64,000 nucleotides of DNA from Dethiobacter alkaliphilus AHT 1 (GTDB lineage Bacteria; Bacillota; Dethiobacteria; Dethiobacterales; Dethiobacteraceae). The number at the start of each line of letters is the position of its first letter. Position 1 is the first letter of the stretch. The notes below the pieces were generated by a model, which made no database searches, was not told the origin of the DNA, and worked only from the letters and a program-made list of their open reading frames with translations. Position numbers and translations under genes: made by a program. The stretch covers positions 1 to 64,000 of the forward strand of contig NZ_ACJM01000009.1 in the NCBI RefSeq assembly GCF_000174415.1. The letters run 5' to 3'. Shown piece by piece: positions 3,632 through 47,475 of this stretch.

Positions 3632-3652
3632 GAAAATGTAGGTTGTGTTTGC

Positions 3653-3685
3653 GGGGGGCCGGGCGATAACCCCGGCCCCCTTTTT
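3653..3685 (+). terminator. Terminator-like hairpin in the acs leader
   Basis: A 10-bp stem GGGGGCCGGG/CCCGGCCCCC with a 7-nt loop is followed by TTTTT, only 28 bp before the acs start. It lies after the acs promoter, so it either ends symporter transcripts or acts as an attenuator for acs. Confidence 0.8.
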
Positions 3686-3713
3686 AGTAAGGAAAAATTG
3701 GAGGAGGGGTACG

Positions 3714-5687
3714 ATGACTGAAAAAGGAAACGAAACAATTGTTGAACAAGGAAATGCATATGCGCCACCGGAGAGCTTTAAGCAAAACGCGCATATCAAA
3801 AGCATGGAAGAGTACCAAAAGATGTACCAGAGTTCCATCAACGATCCCGATAGTTTTTGGTCCGATTTGGCAGGTGAACTGTTGGACTGGTTCAAGCCAT
3901 GGGATAAAGTGGTGGATTTCGACTTCAAGAAAGCAGACATCAAATGGTTCCAGGGCGGAAAACTGAATGTCTCCTATAACTGCTTAGACCGTCACCTCAC
4001 AACCTGGCGTAAGAACAAAGCTGCCATTATCTGGGAAGGCGACGCTCCCGGTGAAAGCCGGACTTATACGTATCATGAACTGTACCGGGAAGTAAACCGC
4101 TTTGCCAATGTGCTGAAGAAAAAAGGTGTTAAAAGAGGCGATCGCGTAGCGCTTTACATGCCCATGATTCCCCAATTGGCCATTTCTATGCTGGCCTGCA
4201 CCCGCATTGGTGCTATTCATAGCATTGTCTTCGGCGGATTCAGTGCGGAAGCCCTGCGTGACCGGATTAACGACAGCGAATGTAAGTTGCTGGTCACAGC
4301 TGATGCCGGCCTGCGTGGCGGAAAAACTGTTAAGCTGAAGGATATTGCCGACGAAGCTCTAAGTGATGCACCTTCCGTGGAAAACGTTATTGTATATCGT
4401 CGTGCAGGTAATGAAGTGAATATGAAGGATGGCCGTGACACCTGGTGGGATGATGAAGTTGCGGCGACAGATATTGAAAAATACTGCCAGCCCGAAGAGA
4501 TGGATGCGGAAGATCCCCTGTTCATTCTCTACACCAGCGGTAGTACCGGAAAGCCCAAAGGGGTTTTGCATACCACCGGTGGCTATCTGACCCATGTTGC
4601 TGCCACCACCAAATATATCTTTGACATTAAAGACGAAGACACCTACTGGTGCACCGCCGATATCGGCTGGGTTACCGGCCACAGCTATATTGTGTATGGC
4701 CCCCTTGCCAACGGCGCAACCAGTGTAATGTTTGAAGGAATTCCTAACTACCCGAACCCGGATCGTTTCTGGGACGTGGTGGAAAAGTATGAAGTCAACA
4801 TTTTCTATACCGCACCCACAGCCATCCGTGCCATGATGCGTGACGGCGATGAGTGGCCCAACCGCCATGATTTAAGCAGCCTGCGTCTGCTGGGTTCAGT
4901 GGGTGAGCCCATCAACCCGGAAGCCTGGAAATGGTATCATAGGGTGATTGGTAAGGAGCGCTGCCCCATTGTGGATACCTGGTGGCAGACAGAAACCGGC
5001 GGCATTCTCATTGCCCCCATTCCAGGAGCAGTACCCACCAAGCCCGGTGCCGCAACGACTCCCTTCTTTGGCGTTGACGCCGCTGTCATCCGTCAGGACG
5101 GCAGCGAGGCCGACGTGGATGAGCCCGGCTACCTGGTAATCCGTAGAGCCTGGCCCGGTATGATGCGGACTGTTTACGGCGACCATGAACGCTTCTTCAA
5201 CACCTACTTCTCCCAGTATGAAGGTTACTACTTCACCGGAGACGGTGCCCGCAAAGATGAGGACGGTTATTTCTGGCTGATGGGCCGGGTGGATGATGTT
5301 ATCAATATCTCCGGTCACCGCCTGGGAACTGCCGAAGTGGAAAGCGCACTGGTGGCGCATGACGCTGTGGCTGAAGCTGCGGTTGTCGGCTTCCCCCATG
5401 ATATTAAGGGTGAAGGTATCTACTCCTACGTAATCCTCAGAGAAGGGTTTACCGCCAGTGATGAACTGCGTAAAGAACTGGTGAAGCATGTCCGTAAAGT
5501 AATCGGACCCATTGCTACACCGGACCATATCCAATTCTCCCCTGCCCTGCCTAAAACCAGGAGCGGGAAAATCATGCGCCGTATTTTGCGCAAGATTGCC
5601 CACGGCGAAGAGGATGGTATCGGCGATACCTCCACACTGGCTGACCCCAGCATTGTGGATACCCTGGTTAAGGATCGCGTCAGCTAA
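3714..5687 (+). CDS. acs: Acetyl-CoA synthetase (AMP-forming)
   Basis: 657-residue cytosolic enzyme that makes acetyl-CoA from acetate, ATP and CoA through acetyl-AMP. The ATG at 3714 is preceded by GGAGGAGGGG; the longer upstream frame runs through the leader hairpin and is rejected. Visible motifs are the N-terminal [16 protein letters not shown] block, the AMP-binding loop [11 protein letters not shown], the [11 protein letters not shown] core and the C-terminal [11 protein letters not shown]. In that last motif Lys619 is the catalytic lysine that is acetylated in other bacteria. The length matches the ~650-residue family. An AcuC-like deacetylase and two AcuB-like proteins elsewhere in the window suggest control by lysine acetylation. 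Confidence 0.97.
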
Positions 5688-8460: not shown

Positions 8461-8489
8461 AGATGCAGAAAAAGGGAAGGACTGGGACC

Positions 8490-9554
8490 GTGAAATCGCT
8501 ACTCACAGTGGAGCAGTTTATAAAGAACAGAGAGCAGTATTTACTTGTCGATGTGCGCTCTCCCGGGGAGTTTTCACTGGCTCATATTCCGGGGGCAGTG
8601 AATATTCCGCTATTTTCTGATGAGGAGCGGGCGCTTGTCGGCACCACATACTGGAAGGAAGGGACCGACCGGGCCAAACTGGTCGGTCTTTCTCTGGTGG
8701 GGCCCCGTCTGCCAGGTATGGTGGAGGAAATGCTGGAGAGTGCGGCGGGTCGTGATATTGTCCTCTACTGCTGGCGCGGCGGAATGCGCAGCGGCAGTGT
8801 GTTCTCGGTGATGGAGGCGCTGGGTTATCCGGCCTGGCAACTGGTGGGAGGCTATAAAGCGTTTCGCCGCCATGTTGTGCGCTATCTGAAGAGCGCCAAA
8901 ATAAAGATGCCGGTTTTTGTTCTAAACGGCCTTACCGGAGTGGGCAAAACCTTAGTAATAAAGGAGTTGCAGCGCAAAGGAGCCCCCACCATCGATTTGG
9001 AGCGGCTGGCAAATCATCGCGGATCGGCATTTGGCGGCATAGGACTGGGAAAACCACGCACCCAGAAAGATTTTGAGGCCCATCTGTTCTTCGCCCTAAA
9101 AGAAATAGAAAATGCGCCGTATGTCCTTCTAGAAGGGGAAGGAAAAAAGGTAGGGCCTGTGGTTCTGCCGGATTTTCTCTACAGCGCCATGCATCAGGGA
9201 GAGCATATCCTGCTGGAAGCAGACCTGGAGATCCGGGTAGACCGGATTATAAAAGAGTATCACGGAATAGACGAAAGTGTTGAGCCGTTGGCCGATGCCG
9301 CACTGATGCTGCAGAAAAAATTAGGTCAAAAAAAATGTTCGGCGCTGGCTACCCAGATCCGTCAGGGGGAGCTGCGCCCTGCGGCAATGGCCCTTTGCTC
9401 CGAGTATTACGATCAGTACTACCGTGATTCGCAGCAGAATAAAGGTCATTATCTCGCTGTGGTAGATGTAAATGACATTCAAAGGGGCGCCGCAGTAATA
9501 TTGGCGGTGGTTACAGAATACCTGCAAAAAGGAGAAAGCAGTGGTTCAATATAG
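8490..9554 (+). CDS. mnmH: tRNA 2-selenouridine synthase
   Basis: 354-residue enzyme (also called SelU or YbbB) that replaces sulfur by selenium in 2-thiouridine at the wobble position of Lys, Glu and Gln tRNAs, using selenophosphate. An N-terminal rhodanese domain carries the catalytic Cys94 in YCWRGGMRSG. A P-loop domain follows, with GLTGVGKT near residues 150-157. The GTG at 8490 is chosen because GGGAAGGA lies 8 nt upstream and the promoter excludes the earlier ATG. The last 14 nt overlap the methyltransferase gene. Its presence implies that the organism makes selenophosphate, which supports reading in-frame UGA as selenocysteine in this window. Confidence 0.93.
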   Translation: MKSLLTVEQFIKNREQYLLVDVRSPGEFSLAHIPGAVNIPLFSDEERALVGTTYWKEGTDRAKLVGLSLVGPRLPGMVEEMLESAAGRDIVLYCWRGGMRSGSVFSVMEALGYPAWQLVGGYKAFRRHVVRYLKSAKIKMPVFVLNGLTGVGKTLVIKELQRKGAPTIDLERLANHRGSAFGGIGLGKPRTQKDFEAHLFFALKEIENAPYVLLEGEGKKVGPVVLPDFLYSAMHQGEHILLEADLEIRVDRIIKEYHGIDESVEPLADAALMLQKKLGQKKCSALATQIRQGELRPAAMALCSEYYDQYYRDSQQNKGHYLAVVDVNDIQRGAAVILAVVTEYLQKGESSGSI

Positions 9555-37402: not shown

Positions 37403-38833
37403 TTAGCGTCGTTTGATAAAGTAAATGATGGCGCCGGCCACAATGGCTAATCCCACTAAAAAGGGAAGAACGGGGAAGCGGTCTTCTGCCGGCACATCAT
37501 CAGCCGGTGGAGCGCCATTGGGCGGCTGCCCGTCCTGGGCCGCCACCGCCAGATCCCGGGCATCCTCAGCATAAGCCAGGGCTCGCTCCAGCGTCTCCTG
37601 TGCTTCTGAGGAATTGTGGAATCCTGCGCTGTTTTCCGCGGCATACCATTCCCAGAACAGATGGGCCTGAAAATAGTTTTCCCGTGCCTCGGCTAAAGTG
37701 TCTTCATTTACTCCCGCCGCTTCACCGGCGGCAGCCAGGCTGTCCAATGCGCCGTCCATGGTGGACATTACAGTTTGGTTTAAGCTATAAACTGTTTCCT
37801 GCACTTCTCTGACCCGCGCTTCCAGTTCCTCTTCCGATTCATTATGGCAGCCCAGGCAGGATGGTTCCAGGTGATTTAATGGGCTGGCAAGCCAGTGCAG
37901 GGTAAAAGTCTGGCCGTTTTCAGTTGTTTTCGGCATATGGCAATCGGCACAGCTTAAGCCCAGGTTGTGATGGATGCTGTCCCAATACATTTCCGTTTCC
38001 GGATGCTGGACTTTGTAGAGCATGGTGCCGGCATCCGGGTGTTCCCAGCCGCCTGTACCCGTTTCCCGCCAGATATCGGTGGAAGCAATGTAGTCGGGCA
38101 TTTCCGCTACTTTAACATAGGGAAACTCAACGCTCTGGGCGCCCGGATTAAAGTTGTAGTTGACGTGGCACTGAGCGCACACCAGCGTCTGCAGCGGGTC
38201 TTCTTTTCCCGGATGTTCCTCGGGCATTCGCTCCAGCGCTTCTGTTAATGCAGGCTGCACAACCCTCAGTTCGGCTGTGTGGGGATTATGGCACTGGACA
38301 CAGGTGATGGGATTTACAATGACACCTGCATCCATCAATTCGCCGGTATTACTCTCATAAGAGATGGTATCCTGCCACTGCCAGTACACATCACTGCTTT
38401 TGCAAAACATGCACAAAGCGGAGCGGGGCCGGCTTGTTTCCACGAAATCGGTGAGCATGTTAATGTGGGAGCGCGGTTCCCTGTAATCCTCGGCAAAAGG
38501 GTGCCCGGCCAACAGCCGCCTAAGCAGCGGGTATTGCTCCTGTTTCTGCGGAGTCTGATCCGCATCTTCACCGGTTACATAGGTGTTATACTGCGGCTCA
38601 TGGCAATCTCCGCAGATTTCTGCCTCCACGCTGACTCCCGGTGCTTCCGCCGGACTTGCCGCGTGAGCTTCACCGTTTTCGTGACAAAGGCTGCAGTCCA
38701 TATCGCTGTGAGGCCCTTGTTGGTAAGGACCGGCTACATCATCATGGCATTGTGTGCAGTTTTCTCCCTGGGCAAAGGCCGGTGCTGCAAATAAAAACAT
38801 AAAAAGTACTACAGTTGCAATTCTGGTACCCAT
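37403..38833 (-). CDS. Octaheme nitrite reductase-like cytochrome c, C-terminally membrane anchored
   Basis: 476 residues: signal peptide (1-21), eight heme sites, and a C-terminal membrane helix (about 452-472) ending in KRR. Heme motifs are at 26, 47, 74, 141, 178, 219, 295 and 326. The fourth is CMFCK, with Lys145 as the expected ligand of the catalytic heme; the others are CxxCH. Active-site residues of NrfA are present: Arg121, Tyr226 and KVQH with His277; the calcium ligand Glu is Asn225. Seven CxxCH with CxxCK at position four is the pattern of octaheme nitrite reductase (TvNiR). It should reduce nitrite, and perhaps sulfite, to ammonia or sulfide outside the membrane. The ATG at 38833 follows AGGAGG. 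Confidence 0.88.
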   Translation of the reverse strand: MGTRIATVVLFMFLFAAPAFAQGENCTQCHDDVAGPYQQGPHSDMDCSLCHENGEAHAASPAEAPGVSVEAEICGDCHEPQYNTYVTGEDADQTPQKQEQYPLLRRLLAGHPFAEDYREPRSHINMLTDFVETSRPRSALCMFCKSSDVYWQWQDTISYESNTGELMDAGVIVNPITCVQCHNPHTAELRVVQPALTEALERMPEEHPGKEDPLQTLVCAQCHVNYNFNPGAQSVEFPYVKVAEMPDYIASTDIWRETGTGGWEHPDAGTMLYKVQHPETEMYWDSIHHNLGLSCADCHMPKTTENGQTFTLHWLASPLNHLEPSCLGCHNESEEELEARVREVQETVYSLNQTVMSTMDGALDSLAAAGEAAGVNEDTLAEARENYFQAHLFWEWYAAENSAGFHNSSEAQETLERALAYAEDARDLAVAAQDGQPPNGAPPADDVPAEDRFPVLPFLVGLAIVAGAIIYFIKRR

Positions 38834-38985
38834 AAAACTGAACCTCCTGTGGTGGAATACTGATATTTTTATCCCAAAACCTGCAGGAGATACATTGTTT
38901 GTCATTTTTATCTGTCGGTGGACGAAAGCGGGGAAAGTATTATACAATGTTAGCATATGCATACAGACAGAAAGGAGGATGCGCT

Positions 38986-43777: not shown

Positions 43778-44339
43778 GGCTAACTTTCAACCTGAGTTCA
43801 GGTTGCAATCAAACAAAGACCGGACAGCTACCAGCTGTCCGGTCTTTTATTAATTCAGCTGTTCCCGTAGAAACCGGCGGCCATCTTCTCGGTACTGCTC
43901 CACTTGGTATCGTAGACGATGGTCGCTTTTTGACCGGGATTTAGCTGGTGCCTTTGCAGAGCAAAGAATAGCGGCCCGTGGCGTAATTTGTTACTGCTTA
44001 TAGTTATTTCCTGTTTAGAGGAGGTCCTTTCAAAAATTAAAAATTATCCAACATTTGTCTGTAAGGTTACAATTGTTAAAAATATGTGAAATTATTGTCG
44101 CTAAGCTATGGCGGAAATAATGTATCTGTGTTATACTTTTAACAGCCTTAAACCGCATGAATAAAGGGTTTTCAAATACAGAGTAAACATGTAGGAAAAG
44201 TATAATGGTTTAGTATATGAGTACATTGTTAATTCGTTAGTACATATATACTAAGCGAGGGAGGGATGACCCAGGGACTTGGCAGAGGACAAACCTATGT
44301 GTTTTCGGGGGAAAAATGACAACAGGAGAGGTGAAAAAA
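43778..44339 (+). other. 560-bp gap: terminator, possible minus-strand gene remnant, structured cytochrome leader
   Basis: After the zinc-ribbon gene comes a terminator (43815-43846). On the minus strand about 43852-43985 is an open frame of about 46 codons without a start, ending RRFLREQLN, perhaps a gene fragment. Around 44130-44137 is an extended -10 (TGTTATACT). Further inverted repeats are TTATACTTTT (44131-44140) with AAAAGTATAA (44196-44205), and TTAGTATAT with ATATACTAA (44210-44254). A 17-codon frame at 44266 overlaps the cytochrome start region as ATGA. No riboswitch I know fits. Confidence 0.4.
43815..43850 (+). terminator. Terminator after the zinc-ribbon gene
   Basis: AAAGACCGGACAGCT pairs with AGCTGTCCGGTCTTT around a 3-nt loop and ends in T. 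Confidence 0.9.
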
Positions 44340-45626
44340 TTGCTGAAAGATGGAGGAAAAAACTTAGTATTGCTAATGTTCTTCGCAGCGTTTGTCATTA
44401 TACTGGCAGTTGGCTGCGGTGAGCAGCAGCCTCAGGTGGAGGCTGTGGCCAGTGATGCCTGCATCACATGCCACATTGAACCGGATATTATTGACTCAAT
44501 GTATACGCCGCCACCTGCTGCCGAAGGCGGCGGAGGCGGCTGAGGTGTTGCCGGTCCGCAGTTGGCGGGCAGCGAAAAGTACTGTGTCGATGAAGCATTT
44601 TTGACTTCCACCCATGGTGAACTGGGCTGTATTGCCTGTCACGGTGGAGAAAATGTGGAAGACAAAGCTGAAGCACACGCCGGTATGATTAAGTATCCAT
44701 CTGCCGATGCGGGTGGAATTTGTCAGGAATGTCACGGAGATATCGCTTCTGATTTTGAAAAATCCATTCATTACACCATTCAGGGCATGCGCAATGCATT
44801 GGAAGACTTTACTCACCCCGGTGTACTGGATGAAGATGGCGGAATCAGGGAGGCTTTTGACAACAATTGTTACAAGTGTCACGCAACATGTGGCTCCTGC
44901 CATGTGAGCCGTCCCATAGCATACTCCGGCGGTCTCCATTCACAACACACTTTTACTAAGACACCGCCTATGGAAGACACATGTTACGGCTGTCACGGCG
45001 CTAGAAATGCCGGAGAGTTCATGGGCCGGGTGGGGTATAGCAGCGACGTCCATTATGACAACGGTATGCACTGTATAGATTGTCATCCGGTGAATAATTT
45101 CCATGGCAGCGGTGAGTTTGAGCAGAATATGTGGGAAGCCGACCTGCCTAAATGTCTTGACTGTCACGAGGAAGTCTATACCGATTCAGACATTCAGGCC
45201 CATAATGTCCATGAGCCGGATGCCATGTCCTGTCAGGTATGTCACGCTTCGGCAAATAACAATTGCTTTGACTGCCATGCTACACCACAGGAAGACGGCA
45301 GTGTGGCCGGAACATCGGATATGCGCATTATGTTTAAAATCGGCCAGAACCCCAATCCCACCGAACAGCATCCTTACAGATATATGACCATCCGTCATAT
45401 TCCCACCACTGCTGATACGTTTAGGCCCATGGGAGCGGAACTGCCAAACTTCGATGAAATCTCCAACTGGAAATATTCGCCCACCCATAACGTGCAACGC
45501 AGCACCATCCAAAATGAAAGTTGTGATTCCTGTCATGGCAACCCGTTTATTTTCCTGCGCGAAGAGGACATCCGTGAAAACGACAGCCAGGCCAGCCGGG
45601 AATGGGTTGTAACAGACATACCTTAG
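44340..45626 (+). CDS. 11-heme lipoprotein cytochrome c with in-frame UGA (probable Sec68)
   Basis: Two same-frame ORFs are separated by a single TGA at 44541-44543. Read through, they give about 428 residues: a lipoprotein signal (LAVGC, lipid Cys26), one CxxCH at 41-45, a linker ending GGGGG-U-GVAGPQ, then ten more CxxCH motifs. The downstream part alone has no signal peptide and only a TTG at 44562 with no ribosome site, so it cannot be a cytochrome by itself. A hairpin GTCCGC-AGTTG-GCGGGC (44554-44570) has its loop 16 nt after the UGA with G at position 2, matching bacterial SECIS rules. The TTG at 44340 has AGGAGAGGTG upstream; an ATG at 44316 is the alternative. It is an extracytoplasmic electron carrier or reductase, followed by a rhodanese lipoprotein. 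Confidence 0.8.
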
Positions 45627-45691: not shown

Positions 45692-46651
45692 ATGAAAAAG
45701 ACTTTTAAGTTATTGTTGGTTTTGCTATTAGTAGGTGTGATGGCATTTGGTTTAGTAGGCTGCGGCAACGAAGAAAATAATAACAATGAGCCGGTGGATA
45801 TCGAAGATAATGACAATAATCTGGAAGAAGAAATTGCTCTTGACCCGCAGGAAGTAGTATTGGAAGCGGCCAAAGCATATTTTCCCAAAGTAGCTGATGA
45901 TAACAACATCATTAGCTCCGAAGATGTAAAAGAAGCTCTGGAGTCAAATCCTGATGCCATGTTTATTCTTGATATTCGCAGCGCTGAAGACTTTGAAGAA
46001 GGTCATATTGCAGGAGCAGTCCACAGTGGCTGGGGTAATGTGGGAGAAATTATGGACCGTCTGCCCAAAAACAGGCCGGTTGTGGTTGCCTGCTACTCAG
46101 GCCAGACTGCAGGGCAGGCCGTTGCCTTGCTTCGCATGGCCGGTTTTGACAATGCACAATCCATGCTTTACGGTATGAGGCTTGGTTGGGAAGAAGAAGG
46201 ATTTGCCAAAGAGGGCACAGGTATGGTAGCTGCTGCCGACCTGTCTGCTGTTACTTCCCCTGCCGATGAAAAAGAAGAAATTCTCTGGGAAAAAGCCCAG
46301 GCAGTATTTGCCGATATCGCAGACGGTAACCGGGCCTTGTTTGACCCGGAAGAATTGCAGGCCGGACTTGAAGAGAACCCCAATGCCTTCTATGTTCTTG
46401 ATATCCGCAGAGGCGAAGACTTTGAAGAAGGTTACATCGAGCATTCTGTGCACAGCCCCTGGGCCCAGGTGGGTGAACTTCTTGAATCCCTGCCCACCAA
46501 CCGCCCCGTAGTAGTAGGTTGCTACTCCGGTCAAACCGCCGGCCAGACCGTAGGCGTACTGCGCATGCTGGGTCTGGATGCCAGATCTCTTCTGTACGGC
46601 GTGCGTGACGGTTGGGTAGAAAGAGCAGAACTTCCTCTGGTAACTGAATAA
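45692..46651 (+). CDS. Tandem rhodanese-domain lipoprotein
   Basis: 319 residues: lipoprotein signal (LVGCG, lipid Cys24), an acidic linker rich in Asn, Glu and Asp, then two rhodanese domains (about 65-165 and 205-310). Both active loops read CYSGQTAG, so both should carry a persulfide. The domains are closely similar and arose by duplication. It is anchored outside the membrane, where it could bind and pass sulfane sulfur. It starts 65 bp after the 11-heme cytochrome with no terminator between, so the two probably form one operon. Confidence 0.9.
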   Translation: MKKTFKLLLVLLLVGVMAFGLVGCGNEENNNNEPVDIEDNDNNLEEEIALDPQEVVLEAAKAYFPKVADDNNIISSEDVKEALESNPDAMFILDIRSAEDFEEGHIAGAVHSGWGNVGEIMDRLPKNRPVVVACYSGQTAGQAVALLRMAGFDNAQSMLYGMRLGWEEEGFAKEGTGMVAAADLSAVTSPADEKEEILWEKAQAVFADIADGNRALFDPEELQAGLEENPNAFYVLDIRRGEDFEEGYIEHSVHSPWAQVGELLESLPTNRPVVVGCYSGQTAGQTVGVLRMLGLDARSLLYGVRDGWVERAELPLVTE

Positions 46652-46707: not shown

Positions 46708-47475
46708 TTATTTTTCTTTAAGAGCAGGTTCCTTCAGCATATGAATAAAATTCAGAACCAGCCGCAGTTGCTCGCTGTCTAATGTGCAGATGTGGCCGAT
46801 GAGCATTTGTACGCGGGGGTCAAACAGTAGTTCACGCAGTTCGGGGGTGATACCGGCAATAATCCCTTCCGCGTCTTCCTGCTCCAGTATCAGATAGCAG
46901 ACAGATACGCTTAGCGCTTTGGAAATGCGTTCAATGGTTTTTAATGAGGGCTGAACTTTTCCTGTTTCCAGTTGAGCCACAAGGCCTGGGGAAATCTGGG
47001 CTGCGTTGGCCAGCTGCTTTTGTGTCATTCCTTTGGTTTCCCGCGTCATGCGTATTTTTTTACCCGTGGCAATCAGTTTGCCCTCGGTATGGAGAAACAA
47101 GCTTATGGGAACATTGAAGTAGCGGCTGATTTTCTGCAGCGTCTGAATAGAAGGCGTTCTTTCTCCCAACTCGATTTCGCTTAAGTAGGTTACAGACAAG
47201 TCAAGGTGCCTGCCCAACTCTTCCAGGGTAAGCCCTTTTTCCTCCCTCATGGCCCGCAGTTTATCACCCATCCCGGATGTGCTAAAGTGTAAGGCCTCAA
47301 TATCTTCATCTAAGTCAAGGTTCGCAAGAAGATAATCCAGGGCTTTGCTGGTGAGCTCACGCTTTCCTTCTTCCACTTCTTTTAGGTATGCCAGAGGCAA
47401 GTTGCAGGCTTTAGATAGTTCCTCAATAGTTAATTTATTTTTAGTGCGGATTTTCTTTAGTTGTTTTTCCAGCAT
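46708..47475 (-). CDS. Transcriptional regulator with three HTH_XRE domains
   Basis: 255 residues holding three Cro/C1-type helix-turn-helix domains in a row (about 5-60, 70-125, 132-190), followed by a C-terminal helical region of about 60 residues. Key helices read TIEELSKACNLPLAYLKEVE, TLEELGRHLDLSVTYLSEIE and TQKQLANAAQISPGLVAQLE. Most XRE regulators have one such domain; three could contact an extended or repeated operator. The ATG has GGAGGGG upstream. It is divergent from the dicarboxylate symporter and convergent with the rhodanese gene, either of which may be its target. Confidence 0.88.
   Translation of the reverse strand: MLEKQLKKIRTKNKLTIEELSKACNLPLAYLKEVEEGKRELTSKALDYLLANLDLDEDIEALHFSTSGMGDKLRAMREEKGLTLEELGRHLDLSVTYLSEIELGERTPSIQTLQKISRYFNVPISLFLHTEGKLIATGKKIRMTRETKGMTQKQLANAAQISPGLVAQLETGKVQPSLKTIERISKALSVSVCYLILEQEDAEGIIAGITPELRELLFDPRVQMLIGHICTLDSEQLRLVLNFIHMLKEPALKEK

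Follow-up and report, generated by a model that had tools for sequence, protein, structure and literature searches.

An 11-heme c-type cytochrome of Dethiobacter alkaliphilus with a predicted selenocysteine and an exported rhodanese partner

The window analyzed here, a stretch of 64,000 nucleotides of Dethiobacter alkaliphilus AHT 1 (contig NZ_ACJM01000009.1, positions 1 to 64,000), carries a gene for an 11-heme cytochrome in which an in-frame UGA is, judging from sequence comparisons, almost certainly decoded as selenocysteine (Sec) by means of a bSECIS-type hairpin. The best reading of the aligned sequences is that the 11-heme Sec cytochromes form a new family of predicted Sec cytochromes. 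On comparative evidence the predicted Sec cytochrome is coupled to a rhodanese, and the two are probably part of an unrecognised machine that respires sulfur compounds such as thiosulfate.

An earlier note on this DNA had described a single TGA dividing one open frame, with one CxxCH motif on its 5' side and ten on its 3' side. Both the TGA and the motif counts were confirmed, and the elements of the gene are as follows:

44340-45626, forward strand: complete frame coding for the 11-heme selenocytochrome, from the part before the UGA through the UGA to the part after it; homologs are colinear across the UGA
44324-44331, forward strand: Shine-Dalgarno-like sequence AGGAGAGG, 8 nt 5' of the TTG at 44340
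44340-44417, forward strand: signal peptide with a lipobox-like ILAVG/C (Cys codon 44415-44417), from the sequence
44460-44474, forward strand: heme-binding motif 1, CITCH, invariant among homologs
44523-44564, forward strand: codons of the linker, E-GGGGG-U-GVAGPQL; the core is invariant in seven close homologs, distant ones vary, and pLDDT is about 30
44541-44543, forward strand: in-frame TGA read as Sec; TGA in 16 loci, TCA in one
44628-45623, forward strand: ten-heme domain, with ten CxxCH

The ATG at 44316 is an alternative start for this frame. The heme layout is one CxxCH, the Sec and then ten CxxCH, giving 11 motifs in all; those of the ten-heme domain lie at residues 104, 135, 184, 191, 222, 252, 279, 305, 316 and 402 of the predicted protein. 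A frame of 354 amino acids can open 3' of the UGA from TTG 44562. When the starts from this TTG onward were checked, neither a signal peptide nor a well-placed ribosome site was found, in agreement with the earlier note; since a c-type cytochrome needs export, the missing signal peptide argues against a start after the UGA. The same note had called the product an 11-heme lipoprotein. That description holds for the window gene, with its 11 hemes and lipobox-like signal, but lipoprotein anchoring is not universal, the lipobox Cys being absent in homologs L004, L006 and L012. An extracytoplasmic, membrane-attached location of the selenocytochrome is supported.

Homologs were identified by a scan of genome contigs and by profile searches that covered 98 genomes of the class and a draw of 398 genomes from the phylum. 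The contig scan gave four close relatives with 61-68% identity, each having a single TGA at the same place. Altogether there are 16 UGA loci, the window included, which come from many genera and are 33-69% identical to the window protein (L028-L033 and L035-L037 are among them). The in-frame stop at the linker site is always TGA, never TAA or TAG, and the protein is conserved on both sides of it. Among the 17 loci that bear the linker, 16 have UGA at this position and the remaining one, L034, has TCA (Ser); no homolog terminates there, so that the alignment proposed in the earlier note, meant to show whether homologs have Cys or Sec where the window protein has GGGGG-x-GVAG, came out in favor of Sec. 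The motif surrounding the UGA takes the forms GGGGG-U-GVAGPQL, TGG-U-GAPGPQL, AGGG-U-GAPPPKL and GEGEG-U-AGPPPP, and in the distant relatives L038-L041 the whole linker is missing. A Cys form of the linker site was not found in the phylum draw of 398 genomes or in three class searches (3, 7 and 4 genomes). The lack of Cys homologs in the genomes sampled suggests a chemistry that needs selenium. A search of a plasmid collection gave no match.

In the exceptional locus (L034:1384-2304, genome G476), Ser replaces the UGA while the strong hairpin is kept. A recoded Sec tRNA was considered as the cause and was ruled out, as the tRNA-Sec of this genome has the usual tca anticodon; for that reason the Ser is either real or an assembly error, and the locus may represent a loss of Sec under way. 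In a phylogenetic tree one branch (88/82 support) has the Sec and Ser proteins on the same side; several branches are long. Because the Ser protein is nested within the Sec side, a single origin of Sec followed by one loss is the simplest reading. Another unusual copy, L018:4505-5257, ends after about five hemes with the UGA retained and adjoins genes that look spore-coat-associated; it is either a pseudogene or the result of an assembly break.

The UGA is followed by a hairpin, which the earlier note had described as SECIS-like with its loop 16 nt past the UGA:

44554-44570, forward strand: bSECIS-type hairpin GTCCGC-AGTTG-GCGGGC, starting 10 nt downstream of the UGA, with its loop 16 nt after it

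This position was borne out, and the hairpin covaries among the seven close homologs, in which 40 of the 42 pairs of the 6-bp stem are kept. Pairs with changes on both sides numbered 3, as against 1.2 in column shuffles. Base 3 of a Pro codon changes in step with base 2 of an Ala, Glu or Gly codon, so that the two form G-C, C-G, U-A or U-G. Shuffles of synonymous codons never matched the observed pairing in 20,000 trials (maximum 35, mean 26.5). The folding energy of the window hairpin taken alone, with its flanks, was unremarkable (z = -0.6), so the evidence for the hairpin is its covariation. The bSECIS model (PMC13188914) calls for a G within the first two loop positions and a loop 16-37 nt after the UGA. 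It fits strictly in 15 of the 16 loci, although in L030, L036 and L037 the hairpin is weak, with 4 bp only; the L031 hairpin fits only with one bulged base.

The genome of the host (D. alkaliphilus AHT 1, 3.11 Mb in 34 contigs) was searched for selenium genes. It has selA, selB and selD in a single cluster and a tRNA-Sec with anticodon tca. With this full machinery, UGA in 16 of 17 loci and a covarying hairpin, the proposal of the earlier note that the UGA encodes Sec is well upheld. A genome-wide reassignment of UGA was rejected, as the homolog L006 itself terminates with TGA. That the UGA is a true stop, owing to a pseudogene, a sequencing error or two separate proteins, is scarcely credible: the frame opening at TTG 44562 and the truncated L018 would fit this, but the UGA is held at one site in 16 loci of many genera, the hairpin covaries between homologs, and the post-UGA part has neither signal peptide nor ribosome site.

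Two other selenium-related genes were seen. The window encodes MnmH, the tRNA 2-selenouridine synthase, at 8463-9554, a second selenium trait of this organism. At L021 (genome contig C3:124334-124423) there is a tRNA-Cys (GCA) whose long fold resembles that of tRNA-Sec. It scores 58.5 bits, above the Rfam tRNA-Sec gathering cut-off, and looks like a selC*-type tRNA-Cys beside the true tRNA-Sec.

The known system that most invites comparison is ExtKL of Geobacter (NF040886, cyt_C_like_Sec; GSU2937-GSU2936), likewise a membrane-associated c-type cytochrome with several hemes, for which an in-frame UGA/Sec is predicted (PMC5877670, PMC6148476, PMC1914089). An exported rhodanese gene, that of ExtH, lies close by, as one does in the window cluster. 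However, ExtKL has five N-terminal hemes and a Sec in its heme-free C-terminal part (PMC1914089, PMC6148476), whereas in the window protein the predicted Sec stands between the first heme and the other ten. Neither the window protein nor the tested homologs matched NF040886 (cut-off 250 bits), nor did a genome search at the locus, and membership of ExtKL was rejected on this ground. As both have an exported rhodanese, the two may be functional analogues. Local profile similarity was found to octaheme cytochromes, namely MccA (4rkm, E 2e-4) and 4qo5 (E 3e-5), and a GenBank-annotated Otr-family protein with Sec is on record (PMC13188914). The window protein differs from the octaheme sulfite and tetrathionate reductases SirA/MccA and Otr in its 11 motifs and its Sec arm, and TIGR04315, the Otr/SirA family profile, matched neither it nor the homologs scanned. 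In the NCBIfam scan no model reached its cut-off. The best partial matches, all in the ten-heme part, were to the ExtM, DmsE-family and GSU2203-family cytochromes, at no more than about 39 bits for the window protein as against cut-offs of 192-800, and the descriptions of those models are without Sec.

The earlier note had overlooked the partner of the cytochrome, its sulfur context and the proteomic record described below. On the 3' side of the cytochrome gene the following were found:

45692-46651, forward strand: next gene and partner, encoding an exported lipoprotein; PF00581 matches it in two stretches, its two rhodanese domains with CYSGQTA sites
46708-47475, reverse strand: triple HTH (XRE-like) regulator, syntenic in L003 and L005 and nearby in L050

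Of the 13 complete loci examined, 12 have a rhodanese gene adjoining that of the cytochrome, very distant ones included (the window, L003, L005, L006, L019 and L050-L056, L004 being the one without); L018 was left out of this count because its cytochrome is truncated. The window pair is the only one of its kind among the rhodanese loci of the host genome. The triple HTH gene possibly encodes the regulator of the locus. Genes near the cytochrome include those for CcmC, CcmE, CcmF and a Sulf_transp protein in L006. A b561 cytochrome is encoded nearby in both L050 and L054, together with an Fe-S protein in L050 and with a c-type cytochrome and a two-part YeeE/YedE in L054.

Some arrangements are peculiar to single loci. 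In G030 (L012/L019) the cytochrome is fused in frame to a double rhodanese, which is followed by another double-rhodanese gene. The YeeE/YedE sulfur transporter at L054:11949-13326 is split in two, and the segment between its parts (LIGLCVPGAV) is possibly TusA-like; a UGA was looked for in the transporter and was absent. At L053:26-4220, genes for a molybdopterin oxidoreductase, an Fe-S protein and an NrfD-like protein (Psr/Phs-like by eye) lie upstream of the Sec cytochrome gene in the same orientation.

Gene order suggests that part of this cytochrome has already been recorded as DealDRAFT_1917. According to PMC5609068, DealDRAFT_1917 directly adjoins the rhodanese DealDRAFT_1918, and acetyl-CoA synthetase is DealDRAFT_1887; the window acsA at 3645-5684, some 30 genes upstream of the selenocytochrome, fits the latter. 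We infer from this order, rather than from a sequence record, that DealDRAFT_1917 corresponds to the post-UGA part of the selenocytochrome gene. Its protein was significantly more abundant on thiosulfate than on ferrihydrite, and its annotation was corrected to a multiheme cytochrome near SirA/Otr, with 22% identity to SirA (PMC10376724). The same paper labels it octaheme, yet ten CxxCH follow the UGA in the window gene. D. alkaliphilus is reported to lack DsrAB and molybdopterin sulfur reductases, and strain Z-1002, which reportedly cannot reduce sulfur, carries a near-identical cluster (PMC10376724). As a non-sulfur-reducing strain has this cluster, the selenocytochrome is not sufficient for respiration of elemental sulfur. 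In 2017 the thiosulfate/sulfur reductase of Dethiobacter could not be found (PMC5609068), and the passages located in that paper mention neither UGA nor Sec; in 2023 sulfur reduction was credited only to "non-canonical multihemes" (PMC10376724), in a text where "seleno" does not occur.

As to structure, an AlphaFold model from a 16-row alignment was poor overall (mean pLDDT 54), and the linker had pLDDT of about 30 at residues 71-80 and was of low confidence and unstructured across residues 65-82. The sequences and this model support a flexible, Gly-rich arm that bears the predicted Sec and lies between heme 1 and a compact domain of ten hemes, and they fit the exposed reactive site that the earlier note had envisaged in a flexible linker. 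Outside the CxxCH motifs nine His are invariant and ten mostly conserved. With nine invariant His for 11 hemes, the distal site of one or two hemes may be open or unusual and could bind substrate or Sec.

On balance we favor, as the overall explanation, a Sec-containing 11-heme cytochrome and a rhodanese that together relay sulfane sulfur. The adjacent exported rhodanese would take sulfane sulfur from thiosulfate, polysulfide or elemental sulfur as a persulfide and hand it to the Sec of the cytochrome arm. The Gly-rich arm would bring the resulting selenosulfide to the hemes, where reduction would release sulfide and regenerate the selenolate, and a cytochrome b561-type protein would hand on electrons from quinol. 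The gene pairing and fusion, the neighboring genes, host physiology and the reported induction by thiosulfate point to such a relay; against it stand L004, which has no rhodanese, and L034, which has Ser. As a mechanism it has perhaps a little less than an even chance of being correct. The proposal that this is a new kind of respiratory sulfane-sulfur reductase, with Sec on a swinging Gly-rich arm taking sulfur from a dedicated exported rhodanese and delivering it to the hemes for reduction to sulfide, is similarly tentative. As far as the sequence goes, the reaction may be a reduction or an oxidation, and the substrate may be a species of S, Se or Te.

SoxY has a sulfur-carrier arm with C-terminal GGCGG. 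The likeness to this arm, and to the Cys of SoxA/TsdA, lies in a nucleophilic chalcogen that sits on a flexible Gly-rich arm, or beside a heme, in sulfur chemistry. There is no homology: the window protein would have Sec for Cys, and its arm is internal and built into a cytochrome. No Sox profile was found in the Pfam and NCBIfam scans, and the likeness to SoxY is one of functional analogy only.

A different role in which the cytochrome handles oxyanions of Se or Te, reducing or detoxifying selenite or tellurite in the manner of Geobacter ExtKL with its rhodanese lipoprotein ExtH, seems unlikely. The ext cluster does likewise pair a Sec multiheme cytochrome with an exported rhodanese (PMC6148476, PMC5877670), deletion of its extI impairs reduction of both selenite and tellurite (PMC5877670), and the host has a further selenium trait in MnmH. 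However, the reported inducer is thiosulfate (PMC10376724). Moreover, NF040886 is unmatched, the position of the Sec differs, no ext-type porin was seen adjoining, and Sulf_transp and b561 proteins are among the neighbors.

Alternatively, the Sec might bind one catalytic-site heme, as its ligand or covalently, rather than act as a carrier. A catalytic Cys at the heme serves thiosulfate chemistry in SoxA/TsdA, and the count of invariant His leaves one or two hemes that may lack a distal His. Such a role is nonetheless improbable for an arm that lacks a confidently predicted structure (pLDDT about 30) and differs in length among homologs.

A simple outward relay of electrons to Fe(III) or an electrode, in which Sec would tune how the protein attaches, to minerals or metals for instance, is highly improbable: iron respiration by D. 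alkaliphilus uses many multiheme cytochromes (PMC10376724) and the N-terminus suggests membrane attachment, but the protein is more abundant on thiosulfate than on ferrihydrite (PMC10376724) and the pairing and fusion with rhodanese speak against it.

Under the favored sulfane-sulfur reading, the thiosulfate/sulfur reductase still missing in Dethiobacter has a testable candidate in the selenocytochrome. If this is true, thiosulfate or polysulfide would be respired in bacteria that lack molybdenum- or siroheme-based sulfur reductases, and the rhodanese fusion of G030, which points to a sulfur relay, could tie selenium to respiratory energy conservation. The family is well supported as one of selenoproteins, has no name in the NCBIfam models used and is undescribed in the papers found. 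It is prone to mis-annotation, because gene calls that start after the UGA drop the signal peptide, the first heme and the Sec. Elsewhere in the window, positions 37403-38962 encode a Cytochrom_C552 (NrfA-like) protein with seven CxxCH and a C-terminal membrane segment, which scores under the NrfA equivalog cut-offs.
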